NCBI GenBank assembly: GCA_016212275.1
Contig: JACRGR010000020.1
Location: 1-64,000 of the forward strand
Source: Nitrospinota bacterium
GTDB taxonomy: Bacteria > Nitrospinota_A > UBA7883 > JACRGQ01
Length of the DNA: 64,000 nucleotides
Direction: 5' to 3'
The notes below the pieces were generated by a model, which made no database searches, was not told the origin of the DNA, and was given only the letters and a program-made list of their open reading frames with translations. The position numbers and the translations under genes are program-made. Shown here in pieces: positions 51,057-59,613 of the stretch (positions within the stretch are counted from its first letter, which is position 1; each line of letters opens with the position of its first letter).

Positions 51057-51085
51057 TTTAGAGTGAATTGGAAAAAAGGTATAAT
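51057..51085 (+). promoter_or_regulatory. promoter of the giant coiled-coil gene
   Basis: TTTAGA (51057-51062) and a perfect TATAAT (51080-51085) are 17 bases apart. The start of transcription near 51092 lies upstream of GGAGGAG (51099-51105), which supports initiation at TTG 51116. Confidence 0.6.
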
Positions 51086-51115
51086 GACCGCCGAGGATTG
51101 GAGGAGATTGTCCTT

Positions 51116-54100
51116 TTGAAACCGACGGACCGTTTGGCCGGAGGGCGTTCAGCGCCTTCCCATGCAAAGATTTATTCCGTGGCCGGCGCACAGGCAGGTT
51201 GCGGAGCCACGTTGTTCTCGGTTTTTTCCGCCGCGTCGCTGGCCAATGGCGGCCGGAAAACGCTTCTCATTGAATTCGGCGATTCGTCCTCCGGCGCCTG
51301 CCGCGTGTTGGGACTGCCCCAGCCCGAGTTGGCGCTGAAGGATTTTTATTCGCGCAAAAAAAAGATTTCGGAACTGTCGGTCGCCACGGGCGTAAGCGGA
51401 CTCCGCTTTTTATGGGGCGGCGCGTTGCCGAACGGACGGGGACGGTTGTTTGGCATCGGGGGCCTCTTCGAGCATCTGCGGCGGCTGGACTATGCCGCGA
51501 TTATATTGGACCTCGGCGCGGAGCGGGACAACCGGAAGATGGACTACCTCCTGCTGGCCGATCACCGGGTGGTTGTCGCGCCCGCCTCCGAAGGGGGGGT
51601 GGAACATTTGGCCGCGCATTTTTCCTCCGCCACGGTGCGGCGCTTCGAGCATTTGGCCCGCAAAAAAAGCCGCGCCGCCGAAGCCGCCGCGCTGGTCCGG
51701 CGCGAAGCGGCACGCGATCCGAAAGGCGTGGGGAACGCGGTGAAATCGCTGTTCCCGCTTTTTGCCCCCCAATGGGAAAATGCCAAGGCGGGGCTGAGGC
51801 TTCACGCGGTGGCGAACTTCGTTTCATCCCCGGAGCACATGGAGCTGGCTTCGCGCAGGATCTCCGCCGCATTCGATTCCGCGGTTCCTTCGCCGGTCAA
51901 GGCGTTGTACCTGCCGGCTTTTCCGGCGCGTCCGGCGTTGGGGGATGGTTTCTCGTCGGCGGTGGAAGCGGTGCTGGACGACATCACCGGCGTGGCGGAT
52001 CTGGGCGAAGCGCGCATGGCGCAGTTGCTGGAACGCGCCACCCCGGATGGGGAAAACCCCCAAGCGGTGGCTCACCGGCTCGAATTGCTGGATGCCGTGG
52101 GGCGGGAAGTCGAGAACGAGCGGCAACGCCGGCTTGGGGCATTGGATCGGGAACTGGAGCAACAACGGGCGGACAAGTCCGACCGGATGAACCGGAAGAT
52201 GGACATCGCGCTGGCGGAGCGGAAAAAGGAATTGCTGGCCGCCATAGAGAAACAGGTGGAAGACGTGCGGCGCGAACGGGCCGCCGCCCTGCAATTGGAC
52301 CTGGAAAAACGGCGGGCCGAGATGATGGGGGAATTCGCCCGGCAGATGGAGCACAAGGAGCGCGAGGCGGAAGAAGCGTTCGCCAAGGTGAAGGAGTTCC
52401 GACTGAAGGAGACCGACGCGGCGGTGGAGGCCTATTTCCGCAACGCGAAGGTGAGCGCCGATCGCGAACTGGGCACCCAACGCAAGCGGCGGGAGGCCGA
52501 GATAAACGACGACCTGCTGATGCAAAAGCGGAAAAAGCTCGCCGCGATGGAAACCGAGCTTTCGGAAGAGATAGAAAAGATCCGGGAGATGATCTGGCAA
52601 CAGCTTGAGGAAAAGCGCCGGACCCGGCTGGAAGAGATCGACCGCGCGGTGGAACAGTACCGCAAGGGGAAACTGGCGGGAGTGGACGGCGAGGCGCAGA
52701 CGCGCCGGGCCGCCGTTGAAAAGAGCATCGAGGAAGAGGTGGAGCGCACAAAGAACTTCCTGATGCAGGAAGCGCAACGCGAGGTGATGGCGTTTTCCGC
52801 GCTGGCCGATACGGATATGGCAACGGCGCGGCAGGCCGGCATGCGCCGGATCGAGCAGGAGATGGGCGCGGAACGCGAACGGGTGAAAAAACACATCCGG
52901 GCCGAAGCCGACCGCATAAAAGAAGAAAAAGAAAAGGAAATTCCCGCCTACATCGAGCGGGTGCGGAAAGAGCGGACGCAGGCGCTGGAGCGCAACATGG
53001 AGCTTTTGCGCGGTGAGCTGGCGGCGAAAGTTGCCGCGGACGCCGAGCAGGCGAGGCTGAAAGCCATGCACGAGATAGCCCAACAGACAACGGCGCGACG
53101 CGAAGAAGTGTTTGCCTCGCTGGAGATCGAGCGGACCGGGCGGTTGTCCGAGATGGACCGTGAACTGGCGCAGACCCGCGCCACCCGCGCCGCCGAGCAG
53201 GAACGCGAACTGGCGCGGATCAACGACGAATTGCACGGCGCCCTGCGGCTGAAACTGGCCGAAGAAGAGGCGCGCCTGAACGCCCTGATGGAAAAGGCGC
53301 TCCGTGAAAAACGCGACGAGAAGGAAGAGGCCCTTTCGGCCATCATCAAGGAGGAACGCACCCGCCGCGTGGAGGAGTTGAACACGGAGTTGGCCCGCCA
53401 GCGCGAGGCGATGATGGACGCCATCACCGCCGAGATGCGGCTGGTGCGGGAACAGGAGTTGGAAAAGCTCCGGCAGGAGGTTACCCAGATACGCGCCCAG
53501 AAGCTCAAGCAGGTGGACCAGGACATCCGGGCCGAAATACGCCGAAAGTCCGAGTCCATGACCATGAACCTGCGGGACGTGGAGGCCGCCATGCGGGCCG
53601 AGATGCAGGAGCGCGTGTCCGAAGAGGATGTGCGGTTGCGCCGGACGCTTTCGGAAGAGGTCAGCCGCGAGATGGCGGCCCTGCGTTCGAAGATGCGGAC
53701 GGACTTCGCCGCCGAAGAGTCCCGCCTGCGGTCCGAATTGAAAGGGATGCTGGACGAGGAAAAGACCCGGCGGCTGGAAGCGATCGGGCGCGAGACCGCC
53801 CTGCGCAAGGCGAAGGGCGAAGAAAATATCACCCAATGGGTGGAGCGCGAAAAGGAGCGGCTGGCGGCGGAAGTCCACTCGAAGATCGCGGAAGAGGAAC
53901 AGGTCAAGCGGCAACTGCTGGAATCGCGCCTGGAGTATGACCGCAGGCGGGTGGCGGACGACATCGCCTTGGAGCGCAAGCGCGCCGAAACGGAAGAACA
54001 AAGAAAGCTGAAAGCGTGGACCGATCAGAAGAGGAGCGAGGCGGTGGCGCAGGTGAAGCGCGCCGTGAAAGAAGAGCACCAGCGGATGATGGATGGGCTG

Positions 54101-54988
54101 GAGGAATCGCTGGTCGACGAAAAACACCGCCGGTTCGCCGATCTGGAACACAAAATGGAAATGGAGCGGCAAAAGAGGCTGGCCGCGCTTTCGGCGGAAA
54201 CGCTGAAGGCGAAGGAGTCGCAATTGATACGGTTGGAGGCCGAAATGCGCGAAGTGAAGGAGAACCGGACGCGCGAGGCCGAGCGTGCCGTGGCCGAGGA
54301 AGGCCGCAGGATGGAAGAGAGCATGGACAAGAGGTACCGCGAATTGGCGAAGAAAAAAGAGGAATGGCTGGAATTCGAGAGCCGGCGGCGCAACATGGAG
54401 CTTCAGGCGGCGTTGGAAAAGGATTTGGAAACCGAAAAGGCCAAGCGTCTCCAGCAGAGGCTGGCCGAACTGGAACAGGAAATGGCTGACCGCCGCCGCC
54501 AGTCGCGTGCGGACGTGGAAGAGGAAAAGGCGCGGCTGATGCTCAACCTGCGCGATGAAATGGGGATGCGCCGGAAAGTGGTGGCCCGGAAAATGGCCAC
54601 GGGCCTGAAGGCGAAGATCGCCCAGCACGCCGAGCGGATGGAAGGCGAGGTGGCGGTGGACCGGGAAAAGCGCCTGATGGAGATCGAAAAGGAAGTCATG
54701 GACCTCCGGCAAAAGCGTGTGGAACAGATGGAGGCCGAGGTGTCCCGGGAGCGCGAACGGCGCGTGGAAGGGATGCTGGCCGAGATCAAGGCGGAGCAGG
54801 AAGGGCGGCGGCAGGAGATCATCGCCGAGATGTCGAAAAAGAAAGAGGAACTCGACCTCTCATGGGAGAAGGAGAAGAAGGACTTTTTCGACCGGCTCCA
54901 AAAGGAGGTGGCCCGGAGCAAGGGGGTCACTTCGCAGTACCTTGAATCCGAAATGGAGCGTCTCCAAAAAGCTTGGCGTCTCAACTGA
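51116..54988 (+). CDS. giant TadZ/MinD-like coiled-coil protein
   Basis: The 1290-residue protein starts at TTG 51116, 10 bases after GGAGGAG. Residues 18-170 resemble a ParA/MinD/TadZ fold: P-loop GAQAGCGATL (24-33) without either lysine, LANGGRKTLLIEFGD, switch-like YAAIILDLG (Walker B Asp132) and ADHRVVVAPASEGGVEHL. From about residue 320 to the end it is an almost unbroken, highly charged coiled coil (about 960 residues; arginine, glutamate, lysine and regular methionines or leucines). There is no signal peptide or membrane segment. I infer a cytoplasmic scaffold or polar organiser. Loss of Walker lysines suggests nucleotide binding without turnover, as in some CpaE/TadZ proteins. The LuxR gene follows. 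Confidence 0.75.
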   Translation: MKPTDRLAGGRSAPSHAKIYSVAGAQAGCGATLFSVFSAASLANGGRKTLLIEFGDSSSGACRVLGLPQPELALKDFYSRKKKISELSVATGVSGLRFLWGGALPNGRGRLFGIGGLFEHLRRLDYAAIILDLGAERDNRKMDYLLLADHRVVVAPASEGGVEHLAAHFSSATVRRFEHLARKKSRAAEAAALVRREAARDPKGVGNAVKSLFPLFAPQWENAKAGLRLHAVANFVSSPEHMELASRRISAAFDSAVPSPVKALYLPAFPARPALGDGFSSAVEAVLDDITGVADLGEARMAQLLERATPDGENPQAVAHRLELLDAVGREVENERQRRLGALDRELEQQRADKSDRMNRKMDIALAERKKELLAAIEKQVEDVRRERAAALQLDLEKRRAEMMGEFARQMEHKEREAEEAFAKVKEFRLKETDAAVEAYFRNAKVSADRELGTQRKRREAEINDDLLMQKRKKLAAMETELSEEIEKIREMIWQQLEEKRRTRLEEIDRAVEQYRKGKLAGVDGEAQTRRAAVEKSIEEEVERTKNFLMQEAQREVMAFSALADTDMATARQAGMRRIEQEMGAERERVKKHIRAEADRIKEEKEKEIPAYIERVRKERTQALERNMELLRGELAAKVAADAEQARLKAMHEIAQQTTARREEVFASLEIERTGRLSEMDRELAQTRATRAAEQERELARINDELHGALRLKLAEEEARLNALMEKALREKRDEKEEALSAIIKEERTRRVEELNTELARQREAMMDAITAEMRLVREQELEKLRQEVTQIRAQKLKQVDQDIRAEIRRKSESMTMNLRDVEAAMRAEMQERVSEEDVRLRRTLSEEVSREMAALRSKMRTDFAAEESRLRSELKGMLDEEKTRRLEAIGRETALRKAKGEENITQWVEREKERLAAEVHSKIAEEEQVKRQLLESRLEYDRRRVADDIALERKRAETEEQRKLKAWTDQKRSEAVAQVKRAVKEEHQRMMDGLEESLVDEKHRRFADLEHKMEMERQKRLAALSAETLKAKESQLIRLEAEMREVKENRTREAERAVAEEGRRMEESMDKRYRELAKKKEEWLEFESRRRNMELQAALEKDLETEKAKRLQQRLAELEQEMADRRRQSRADVEEEKARLMLNLRDEMGMRRKVVARKMATGLKAKIAQHAERMEGEVAVDREKRLMEIEKEVMDLRQKRVEQMEAEVSRERERRVEGMLAEIKAEQEGRRQEIIAEMSKKKEELDLSWEKEKKDFFDRLQKEVARSKGVTSQYLESEMERLQKAWRLN

Positions 54989-56427: not shown

Positions 56428-59400
56428 TCACTGTATCTTCCGAATGGTCCTGTTAGTGGCATCCGTCAGGTACAGGCTCGTGCCATCCGTGGTGATCCCC
56501 ACGGGACCGTTAAATTGGGCCGAAGTCCCGGTCGCGTCGGTCGAACCCGCCGTTCCGCTTCCGGCGAACGTAGTGACCACCCCGGTTGCAATCACCACTT
56601 TATGGACTTGGTGACCGACTAAATTGTCCACATACAGGTTCGTGCCGTCCGTCACAATGCCGTGCGGCGAGTTAAATCCCGAGCCGCTGGCGAGTGTGGC
56701 GGTCGCGCCAGTGGCGATCAGAATCTTGTCCACCGCGTTGGAGGCGTATTCCGTCACATAAAGGTATGTGCCGTCCGTTGTGATGGCGCGCGGACTGTTG
56801 AGGCTCGATGCCACCGTGGTTACGATTCCCGTGGCTATCTCAACTTTCCGAATTGCCTGGTTGTTCGCCTCCGCCACATAGAGGTATGTGCCGTCCATCG
56901 TTATGCCCCATGGCCCGTTAAACCGCGCCGCCGCTCCCGTTGCGTTGGTGAAACCCGATGTGCCCGCGGCGCCGGCAAGCGTGGTCACCACGCCGGAGGA
57001 GATCACGATCATCCGGATGGTGTTGTTGTAGAAGTCGGCCACATAGAGATTCGTGCCGTCGGTGGTGATGGAGGTGGGGCCATTAAAAGTCGCCGCCGTC
57101 CCCGTGCCGTCGGCGGAGCCGGTCACCCCGGCGCTCCCGGCAATTGTCGTAACCGCGCCGGTGGATATGACAATCTTTCGGATGGTGTAGTTGCCAAAAT
57201 CCACCACATACAGGTTCGCGCCGTCGGTCGTTATTCCATTGGGCGTGGTAAACCGCGCCGCCGTTCCCGTGGCATCGGTTGATCCCGATATTCCCGCGCT
57301 ACCCGCAAATGTAGTCACGACGCCTCCGGAGGCGAGTGGTTTCGGCACCGCGCCGCCCATCAGGGGAACGATTTTCCGGACGGTGAAATTACTGCCATCC
57401 GCCACAAACAGGTTTGATCCATTCGTGGTTACACCTAAAGGGTTTTTAAACCTTGCCGCCGTGCCGGTGCCATCAGTAGAGCCGCTGGTCAAAGCCGCTC
57501 CCGCAATGGTGGTGACAACGCCTGTGGAGATGACGATCTTGCGGATGGTGTGATTGTTATTGTCAACGACGTACAGGTTGGTGCCGTCGGTGGTTATGCC
57601 GACAGGAAGTTTAAAAGTTGCCGCCGTGCCGGTGCCATCCGCCGATCCGGCGGCGCCGGAACCGGCGACAGTGGTAACCGCGCCCGTGGAGATGACGATC
57701 TTTTGGATAATATTTCCGCCGCTGTTGGCTATAAACAGATTGGTCCCATCGGTGGTGATGCCGCGAGGGGCGGTAAATCCGGTTGCAAAAGTGGTAACAA
57801 CGCCCGTGGATATGACGATCTTACGAACAACATTGTTAGCCTGGTCGGCCACAAACAGATTCGCGCCGTCCGTGACTATGCCATTCGGGGTACTAAAGCT
57901 GGCCGCCGTCCCCGTTCCATCTGTTAAGGCGGCAATGCCGGAACCGGCGACAGTGGTAACAACCCCCGTGGAGATGACGATCTTGCGGACGGTATTGCCA
58001 GCGAGGTCGGTTACAAACAGGTTTGTTCCATCGGTTGTTATGCCTGTCGGACTGTTAAAACTTGCCAACGTGCCCGTGCCATCCGTGGAGGCGGCGGTGC
58101 CGGAGCCGGCAATGGTCGTAACAACCCCCGTGGCTATGACGATCTTGCGGATGGTATTGTTGGTTTGATCGGCTACAAATAAATTTGTCCCGTCAGAGGT
58201 AATTCCATAAGGACGGCCAAACCGTGCCACCGTTCCCGTGGCATCCGTGGTACCAGCGGAAAGGGCTGTGCCGGCAAGTGTGCTCACCGCAACGGTACTT
58301 GCATTGTTAAGGATCAAGCCGCCATTTTGCACCCCGCCGCCCATAAGGTAGGCTGGCGTGGCGAAAACCTGGGATGAAGATGCGCTCTCGCCGCCCGCGT
58401 TCACCGCCGTAACGACGAAGTAGTAAGTGGTCCCGTTCGTAAGCCCGGTGATCGCGTTTCCGGAAGTATGCCCCGTCACCTTCGTACCGCCCGTTCCCGC
58501 TCCGCTGGTGGGGCTGTAATAGACGTTGTAAGACGTTGCGCCGCTTACCGCCGTCCAGCTTACCGTTGCTTGCGCATTCCCGGCGGTGGCCGCCACCCCC
58601 GTGGGGGACGACGGCGCGGACACCTGCGGCGTGGCCGATACCTGGGTGGAAAATGCTCCTTCGCCGCCCGCGTTCACGGCGGTGACGACGAAGTAATAGG
58701 TCGTCCCGTTCGTAAGGCCGGTGATGGCGGAACCGGAAGTATGTCCCGTCACTTTCGTGCCAGCCGTTCCCGCTCCGGCCGTGACCGAGTAATACACGTT
58801 GTAGCTGGTTGCGCCGGTCACCGCCGTCCAGCTTACCGCAACCCGTCCGTCCCCCGCCGTGGCGGATACGCTGGTGGGCGCGGACGGCGTTGGCACTTGC
58901 GGCGTAGCTGATACTTGCGATGAGGCAGTGCTCTCCCCCGCCGCGTTCACCGCCGTCACAACAAAGTAATAGGTCGTCCCGTTCGTAAGGCCGGTGATGG
59001 CGTTACCCGAAGTATGCCCCGTTACTTTCGTTCCGCCCGTTCCCGCGCCGCTGGTGGCGCTGTAATACACGTTGTAGCTGGTTGCGCCGGTCACCGCAGT
59101 CCAGCTTACCGTTGCTTGCGCATTCCCTGCGGTGGCCGCCACACCTGTTGGAGCGGAGGGAACTGAACTGGTGGCAGTTGTCGAAGTCGTCGCCGGGTCT
59201 GCCACCGTCACGGAGATGGCAAGGTCAATCGAGGCGTTCGCCACGAGGTCGACGGTTTTCGATCCGCTGAAAGAAAGCCCGGTATCCGTCGTCACCGTCA
59301 CGGTGAAGGTGCGCGCGTTGCCGGAGGTGACGTCGAGCGACAGTTCCAGCGTATCGAGCGGGATGGCGCCGGTGATGGGGGTGGTCAAGTCCGGGGCGGT

Positions 59401-59613
59401 GACTTTTAGCGAAATGGAGGTGATCTTCGCGGCGTTGAATTTCGGATTGGCGGAGATCATTTTTCCGCCCGGCTTGAGCGACACGCCGGAGGGAAGTTCA
59501 AGGGTGACTTTCGCGCTCGAATTGTTCGCCGAGGGCGCGTCCGCCGCCATCCCGCCGCACGCCGAAAGCGTAAATGTCAACAAAAACAGCAGAGATTTTG
59601 CCACATCCCTCAT
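56428..59613 (-). CDS. Fn3-NHL repeat lipoprotein
   Basis: The 1061-residue exported lipoprotein has a type II signal peptide ending in the lipobox LSAC (Cys19, followed by GG, so probably outer-membrane). A beta-rich region (about 30-145) precedes three near-identical fibronectin type III domains (APTGVAATAGNAQATVSW..., about 90 residues each), then twelve NHL repeats of about 40-55 residues (consensus GITTDGTNLYVAD..NTIRKIVISTG VVTTIAGS). Twelve NHL units would form two six-bladed propellers. It is likely a surface adhesion or binding protein. GGGGCGG precedes ATG 59613. The gspCEF genes could in principle export it. Confidence 0.9.
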   Translation of the reverse strand: MRDVAKSLLFLLTFTLSACGGMAADAPSANNSSAKVTLELPSGVSLKPGGKMISANPKFNAAKITSISLKVTAPDLTTPITGAIPLDTLELSLDVTSGNARTFTVTVTTDTGLSFSGSKTVDLVANASIDLAISVTVADPATTSTTATSSVPSAPTGVAATAGNAQATVSWTAVTGATSYNVYYSATSGAGTGGTKVTGHTSGNAITGLTNGTTYYFVVTAVNAAGESTASSQVSATPQVPTPSAPTSVSATAGDGRVAVSWTAVTGATSYNVYYSVTAGAGTAGTKVTGHTSGSAITGLTNGTTYYFVVTAVNAGGEGAFSTQVSATPQVSAPSSPTGVAATAGNAQATVSWTAVSGATSYNVYYSPTSGAGTGGTKVTGHTSGNAITGLTNGTTYYFVVTAVNAGGESASSSQVFATPAYLMGGGVQNGGLILNNASTVAVSTLAGTALSAGTTDATGTVARFGRPYGITSDGTNLFVADQTNNTIRKIVIATGVVTTIAGSGTAASTDGTGTLASFNSPTGITTDGTNLFVTDLAGNTVRKIVISTGVVTTVAGSGIAALTDGTGTAASFSTPNGIVTDGANLFVADQANNVVRKIVISTGVVTTFATGFTAPRGITTDGTNLFIANSGGNIIQKIVISTGAVTTVAGSGAAGSADGTGTAATFKLPVGITTDGTNLYVVDNNNHTIRKIVISTGVVTTIAGAALTSGSTDGTGTAARFKNPLGVTTNGSNLFVADGSNFTVRKIVPLMGGAVPKPLASGGVVTTFAGSAGISGSTDATGTAARFTTPNGITTDGANLYVVDFGNYTIRKIVISTGAVTTIAGSAGVTGSADGTGTAATFNGPTSITTDGTNLYVADFYNNTIRMIVISSGVVTTLAGAAGTSGFTNATGAAARFNGPWGITMDGTYLYVAEANNQAIRKVEIATGIVTTVASSLNSPRAITTDGTYLYVTEYASNAVDKILIATGATATLASGSGFNSPHGIVTDGTNLYVDNLVGHQVHKVVIATGVVTTFAGSGTAGSTDATGTSAQFNGPVGITTDGTSLYLTDATNRTIRKIQ
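58340..59165 (-). repeat. three tandem Fn3-coding repeats
   Basis: The three fibronectin-type-III units are highly similar at DNA level, e.g. the segment giving GNAITGLTNGTTYYFVVTAVN recurs almost unchanged about every 270 bases. Such identity indicates recent duplication or gene conversion and can cause copy-number change or assembly collapse. Confidence 0.7.

Follow-up and report, generated by a model that had tools for sequence, protein, structure and literature searches.

The stretch analysed here (the window) is 64,000 nucleotides of a Nitrospinota bacterium genome (assembly GCA_016212275.1, contig JACRGR010000020.1, positions 1 to 64,000 of the forward strand). It carries the gene of a giant protein in which a degenerate MinD/FlhG-like head is joined to a very long rod. 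The gene and its control signals are as follows.

51057..51085, plus strand: sigma-70-like promoter TTTAGA-17-TATAAT of the giant-protein gene, a motif found in the sequence
51100..51106, plus strand: Shine-Dalgarno sequence GGAGGAG, supporting the TTG start at 51116
51116..54988, plus strand: coding sequence with TTG start, 1290 amino acids, degenerate MinD/FlhG-like head plus pentadecad coiled-coil rod

The reading frame is free of stops from 51068 to 54988, and TTG 51116 is taken as the start. The Shine-Dalgarno sequence supporting this choice has the same position in close orthologues, and so does the TATAAT box (51080-51085), which also supports it and keeps its spacing. The gene comes from a single draft assembly and encodes a degenerate P-loop, features that would be expected of a sequencing error, an assembly fusion or a pseudogene. 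Such an artefact is extremely improbable. Other genera and families of the phylum have homologues of full length (~1260-1380 amino acids), which already refute it, and the ratio of nonsynonymous to synonymous substitutions (dN/dS) is 0.07-0.27 for head and rod within one sister genus; a chance open reading frame (ORF) or an assembly fusion is therefore excluded. The promoter and the Shine-Dalgarno sequence are conserved and the rod is intact. Where the P-loop lysine would be encoded, codon 31 reads GCC; turning it into AAA or AAG takes three base changes, so a single sequencing error does not account for the lost lysine. As judged from the substitution pattern, the gene is under purifying selection. 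A 962-amino-acid open frame lies on the opposite strand of the rod (51824-54712, minus strand). It is most likely the mirror of E/R-rich repeat codons, with no evidence of being a gene.

The preliminary description of this DNA, made by eye, had proposed a real giant protein of no described family, and both points stand: the ORF and the motifs GAQAGCGATL and YAAIILDLG are all present, and homologues in other genera are full-length. The window protein has no Pfam match (0) and only weak matches of the ParA/tyrosine-kinase type in NCBIfam. No description of the protein or its architecture was found in the open-access literature searched. The fold and the coil type are known, but their combination, the length and the state are unreported in that literature. 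No viral origin was found among 344 pattern-matching viral stretches.

The head occupies roughly the first 300 residues, and its motifs are placed as follows.

51116..52015, plus strand: N-terminal MinD/FlhG-like alpha/beta head, residues ~1-300 (AlphaFold2 (AF2), Foldseek, profile search)
51185..51214, plus strand: degenerate P-loop GAQAGCGATL, residues 24-33, signature lysine and P-loop lysine both gone
51272..51280, plus strand: switch I / Walker A' EFG, residues 53-55 (alignment, mapping onto 4rz2/4rz3)
51491..51517, plus strand: Walker B-like YAAIILDLG, residues 126-134 (sequence, head alignment)

The head has the MinD-like alpha/beta fold of the ParA/MinD (deviant Walker A) ATPases. When a profile of 15 heads is searched against PDB, FlhG comes first (4rz3, 4.7e-25; 4rz2, 2.1e-24) and MinD next, and FlhG 4rz2 is also the best Foldseek match to the model of the window head (E 1.9e-11). 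The heads of G008 and G010 are above the Pfam cut-offs for AAA_31 and CbiA, and the head of G007 is just above that for CbiA. The degenerate ParA/MinD layout noticed earlier is thus borne out, with MinD/FlhG matches and not those of a non-ParA fold. The affinity to TadZ/CpaE suggested at the same time is not. TadZ/CpaE proteins likewise contain a P-loop domain with an atypical Walker A, but the match to them is much weaker than to FlhG: 3fkq, which we take to be TadZ of Eubacterium rectale, reaches 1.9e-4 in the same PDB search, and CpaE_hom_Actino of NCBIfam matches the window protein at 2.7e-4, far under its cut-off. The giant protein also lacks the N-terminal receiver-like domain of TadZ/CpaE, for which there is no room because the P-loop begins at residue 24. 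The gene does not lie in a tad/cpa locus, and no tad gene is among the neighbours examined. The head is therefore MinD/FlhG-like, not TadZ-like.

FlhG/YlxH and MinD (SIMIBI, ParA/MinD family) share the fold and motif order of residues 1-300. The giant protein differs from them in its fused rod of 960 residues, in a presence that is independent of flagellar genes, and in the loss, in the window head, of the signature lysine, the P-loop lysine and the catalytic Asp. The signature lysine before GG is gone in 15 of 15 fused heads, while all nine stand-alone relatives have KGG. The catalytic switch-I Asp (D40 in MinD, D60 in GtFlhG) is replaced by N, S, G, A or T, again in 15 of 15, and Gly55 occupies its position in the window head. 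In the profile alignment the natural 'VDLA' lies over 'LDMA' of 4rz3; 4rz2 reads 'LDMD', differing at that residue. The second Asp of the VDADLGG type is kept in six of the nine stand-alone relatives. Asp132 in YAAIILDLG is invariant across the aligned heads. The P-loop lysine (GGxGK[ST]) is kept in 14 of the 15 fused heads, the window head alone being without it; the replacement of both Walker A lysines, reported in the preliminary description, is accurate for the window and is not a trait of the family.

The nearest relatives of the fused heads that are not joined to a rod include one MinD/FlhG-like family of ~300 amino acids, with KGG and DxD intact (L021:6342-7247, minus strand; L022:4662-5579, minus strand; L090). 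It lies near aldolase-like and DUF520 genes in G008, and similar proteins are found in many other genomes of the panel mentioned below.

It is reported that GtFlhG still binds ATP but no longer hydrolyses it when D60A is introduced, that its K36A variant fails to bind ATP, and that BsFlhG D65A is a constitutive homodimer (PMC12327844). In MinD, the variant D40A shows deficient ATP hydrolysis (PMC6803595). Because the fused heads lack the catalytic Asp, as does the laboratory GtFlhG D60A, the relatives look like natural D60A proteins; the window head, which also lacks the P-loop lysine, resembles D60A plus K36A. The fused heads would accordingly be without ATPase activity. The MinD/FlhG fold and the P-loop lysine of 14 heads are also what would be seen in an active polar or nucleoid-positioning ATPase of the TadZ/MinD/FlhG type, cycling ATP and carrying a long effector arm. 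Such an enzyme is improbable in view of the signature lysine and catalytic Asp missing throughout, the P-loop lysine missing in the window genome, the head absent in G012 and G013, and a gene presence that follows neither FlhA nor PilT-family matches. The slow ATPase proposed earlier is unlikely for the same missing Asp and, in the window, the missing P-loop lysine.

The rest of the protein is the rod.

52106..54985, plus strand: rod, residues 331-1290, ~63 consecutive 15-residue repeats (15/4 periodicity)
52556..52615, plus strand: conserved anchor 1, residues 481-500, ELSEEIEKIREMIWQQLEEK in part (conservation profile)
52598..54985, plus strand: segment of invariant length, the 796 residues that follow Trp494 (residue count)
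54746..54895, plus strand: conserved anchor 2, residues 1211-1260, centre EIKAEQEGRRQEIIAEMSKKKEEL (conservation profile)
54932..54985, plus strand: C-terminal cap helix after a short break (AF2, alignment)

Of residues 331-1290 (960 amino acids), 47% are charged and 24% belong to ILMFVWY; Pro occurs once. The hydrophobic period over residues 341-1290 peaks at 3.745 with a power of 74.7, whereas none of 2000 shuffles exceeds 12.4. In each 120-residue window of the rod the best period is 3.725-3.775, with a 15/4 power of 7-19 and a heptad (7/2) power of at most 2.1. Among the 16 proteins tested the peak is always at 3.745 or 3.75, and each half taken separately gives 3.74-3.755. The coil of MukB, used as a control, gives periods of 3.48 and 3.55, and a second control, another long coil from a relative, gives 3.455. 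When the window rod is folded on 15, hydrophobic residues fill about 0.7, 0.7, 0.3 and 0.5 of the four core positions (consensus LEAELEEERERRLEE). The rod is therefore of the pentadecad (15/4) type and is not an ordinary heptad coil. What had been described as one long charged coil is a single helical rod, as stated, with the charge as stated, but of this other type.

A 15/4 period is the pattern described for right-handed pentadecad coils such as the VASP tetramerisation domain, and the rod is probably a right-handed, multimeric supercoil. It shares with VASP and with YadA-type stalks a hydrophobic repeat of 15 residues, with 3.75 residues to the turn. In the YadA stalk ten such repeats precede the heptads (PMC3539135). 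That stalk is extracellular; the giant protein has ~63 unbroken repeats and, by eye, no export signal. The pentadecad coil is far longer than the examples described in the open-access literature searched. A PDB search with a 300-amino-acid piece of the rod gave no significant match. E, K and R are very abundant in the rod, as they would be in a monomeric single alpha-helix without any coiled coil. This alternative is quite improbable, more so than an active ATPase. A helix on its own would have no need of an uninterrupted hydrophobic stripe with a 15/4 period, and the large hydrophobic residues of the rod keep one strict register, with an occupancy of ~0.7 at two positions of the 15-mer.

Another very long coil occurs in G016 as a 679-amino-acid open fragment (L062:1-2037, plus strand; period 3.455, power 77.8). 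In G014 the contig that carries the rod gene also has a piece 66% identical to it (L061:1-586, minus strand).

The length of the distal rod is fixed. Counted without an alignment, the distance from the conserved Trp (W494 in the window protein) to the C-terminus comes to 796 residues for 16 of 18 proteins, while the remaining two, from the sister genomes G008 and G010, have 787; the count reads G008 and G016 through one stop codon each. These stops within the rod, TAA in G008 (L019:11649-11651) and TAG in G016 (frame in L062), have an open and conserved frame on both sides and may be sequencing errors or real interruptions. The 796-residue segment has a median identity of 27%, and the summed branches of the rod tree amount to ~14 substitutions per site. 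Gaps in the N-terminal part of the coil mostly measure 4, 8, 11, 12, 15 or 26 residues, close to whole helical turns. Conservation peaks at residues 481-500, 1211-1260 and the last 12 residues, that is, near both ends of the 796-residue segment. The AF2 monomer model of the last 211 residues (predicted local distance difference test score, pLDDT, 91.9) shows a continuous helix to ~1267, a break at ~1268-1272 and a cap helix of 17 residues. In the alignment Asn is the last residue in all relatives, and most end in W-x-x-N. With an assumed rise of 0.146-0.150 nm per residue, the 796-residue segment is calculated to be 116-119 nm long and the whole coil 140-144 nm.

An exact length and a long charged coil with two conserved end regions are also what a cytoskeletal filament former might have, its rods joined end-to-end or laterally into cytoplasmic filaments, its role comparable to that of crescentin, FilP or AglZ and its length set by in-register packing. 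Other bacterial coiled-coil-rich proteins polymerise (PMC7002697). Crescentin, FilP and AglZ resemble the giant protein in being very long bacterial coils with or without a small N-terminal domain. The giant protein differs from them in its MinD-like head, its exact length and its lack of heptads, and profile search found no kinship. The heptad rod of crescentin-type intermediate filament (IF)-like proteins is not seen here; the 15/4 pattern is unlike the heptads of the IF-like rods that are known. Of the alternatives, filament formation carries the most weight, though clearly less than the static spacer or scaffold proposed below.

The window genome belongs to the same family as metagenome-assembled genomes labelled Nitrospinales. 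Among the 24 genomes of the phylum examined, the gene is present in eight of the 11 of the window's family and in 11 of the 12 others of the class, the latter count including G021, where a C-terminal piece of 408 residues represents it. No copy was found in G001, G002, G009, G023 or G011, the last being the sole genome outside the class. In a panel of 289 genomes no relative of the coil was found outside Nitrospinota, and every match beyond the phylum involved the MinD-like head alone; scoring covered the two best candidates of each genome, so that weak matches to the coil might have escaped. A scan of the genome contigs with the window head alone found no relatives, and a scan with the head alignment instead found five. 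On the rod tree the families f1, f2 and f6 each form one group, which fits vertical inheritance. G012 and G013, both of family f2, encode rod-only proteins, so the head is dispensable. Since f2 sits among head-bearing families, loss of the head in f2 is the simplest reading, with the branching there unsettled. The preliminary description had allowed that the coil might be a separate gene fused to the head by sequence error. Separate rod genes do exist in these two genomes, but recurrence in many genera shows the fusion to be genuine.

In the window the gene is accompanied by nadD, rsfS, a dksA-like gene, a LapB-like TPR gene and a LuxR-type gene. The neighbours differ between genera; a transketolase-like neighbour recurs in G008, G010, G017 and G018 only, and no conserved operon partner was found within f1 as a whole. 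These surroundings are not those of a flagellar locus. In G020 and G022 the gene occurs but no FlhA was found; G001 and G002 carry FlhA but lack the gene. PilT-family matches occur in 24 of 24 genomes, with or without the gene, as does MreB. A link to MreB, flagella or PilT was considered and rejected, since the presence of the gene follows none of them in the 24 genomes. The independence from flagella and type IV pili weakens an FlhG- or TadZ-like role.

Further along the window, a 1061-amino-acid ORF (56428-59613, minus strand) has a lipoprotein-like start and many near-identical repeats, by eye FnIII-like and then NHL/beta-propeller-like. The small genome G023 has a 752-amino-acid open frame (L071:1-2259, plus strand) that starts with Lys/Ala/Pro repeats (KPAAKKTTAKPAAKK).

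The best explanation, to which we give a probability of about one half, is that of a static spacer or scaffold in the cytoplasm, with a hydrolysis-dead head of the MinD/FlhG type on a rod of fixed length. The head would derive from a MinD/FlhG-type ATPase and be unable to hydrolyse ATP. In most relatives it would remain locked with ATP bound, probably as a dimer; the head of the window genome would be unable even to bind ATP. Without hydrolysis the head would be a fixed pairing or docking module and not a switch. It would carry an unbroken right-handed coiled-coil rod of ~63 fifteen-residue repeats, by calculation ~140 nm long. Since the distal 796 residues (~117 nm) are exact in length and have a conserved site near each end, two partners are likely held at a fixed distance. 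In PomX/PomZ of Myxococcus, too, a ParA/MinD ATPase is combined with a scaffold of coiled-coil type (PMC7993993), but the two are separate proteins and the ATPase is active, unlike the single, fused and catalytically degenerate giant protein.

What the sequences establish is the fold, the missing catalytic residues, the periodicity, the exact length, vertical inheritance and purifying selection; the oligomeric state, the handedness, the lack of ATPase activity and the spacer role are inferences from them. Several points weigh against the spacer or scaffold. The head of the window protein was modelled by AF2 from six sequences (pLDDT 78.6), and models 2-5 have a pLDDT of 62-68. Some P-loop NTPases rely on other catalytic residues. 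The exact length could come instead from lateral in-register packing in a filament. Because the neighbourhoods differ, the gene stands alone and its context names no partner.

A more tentative proposal, possible but given less weight than the static spacer or scaffold, is a cytoplasmic molecular ruler: an uninterrupted pentadecad coil, residue-exact over ~117 nm, with the MinD-type head as a clamp, would set the spacing of two structures in cells of Nitrospinota. The exact spacing of 796 residues suggests that distance itself is selected in the cytoplasm of these bacteria. The natural series of ~63 pentadecads would be of use to coiled-coil biology, the examples in the literature searched having far fewer. 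If the static spacer or scaffold is the true reading, it shows that an ATPase used for positioning can become a purely structural component, and living lineages display three stages of this change: loss of the catalytic residue, of the ATP site and of the domain.

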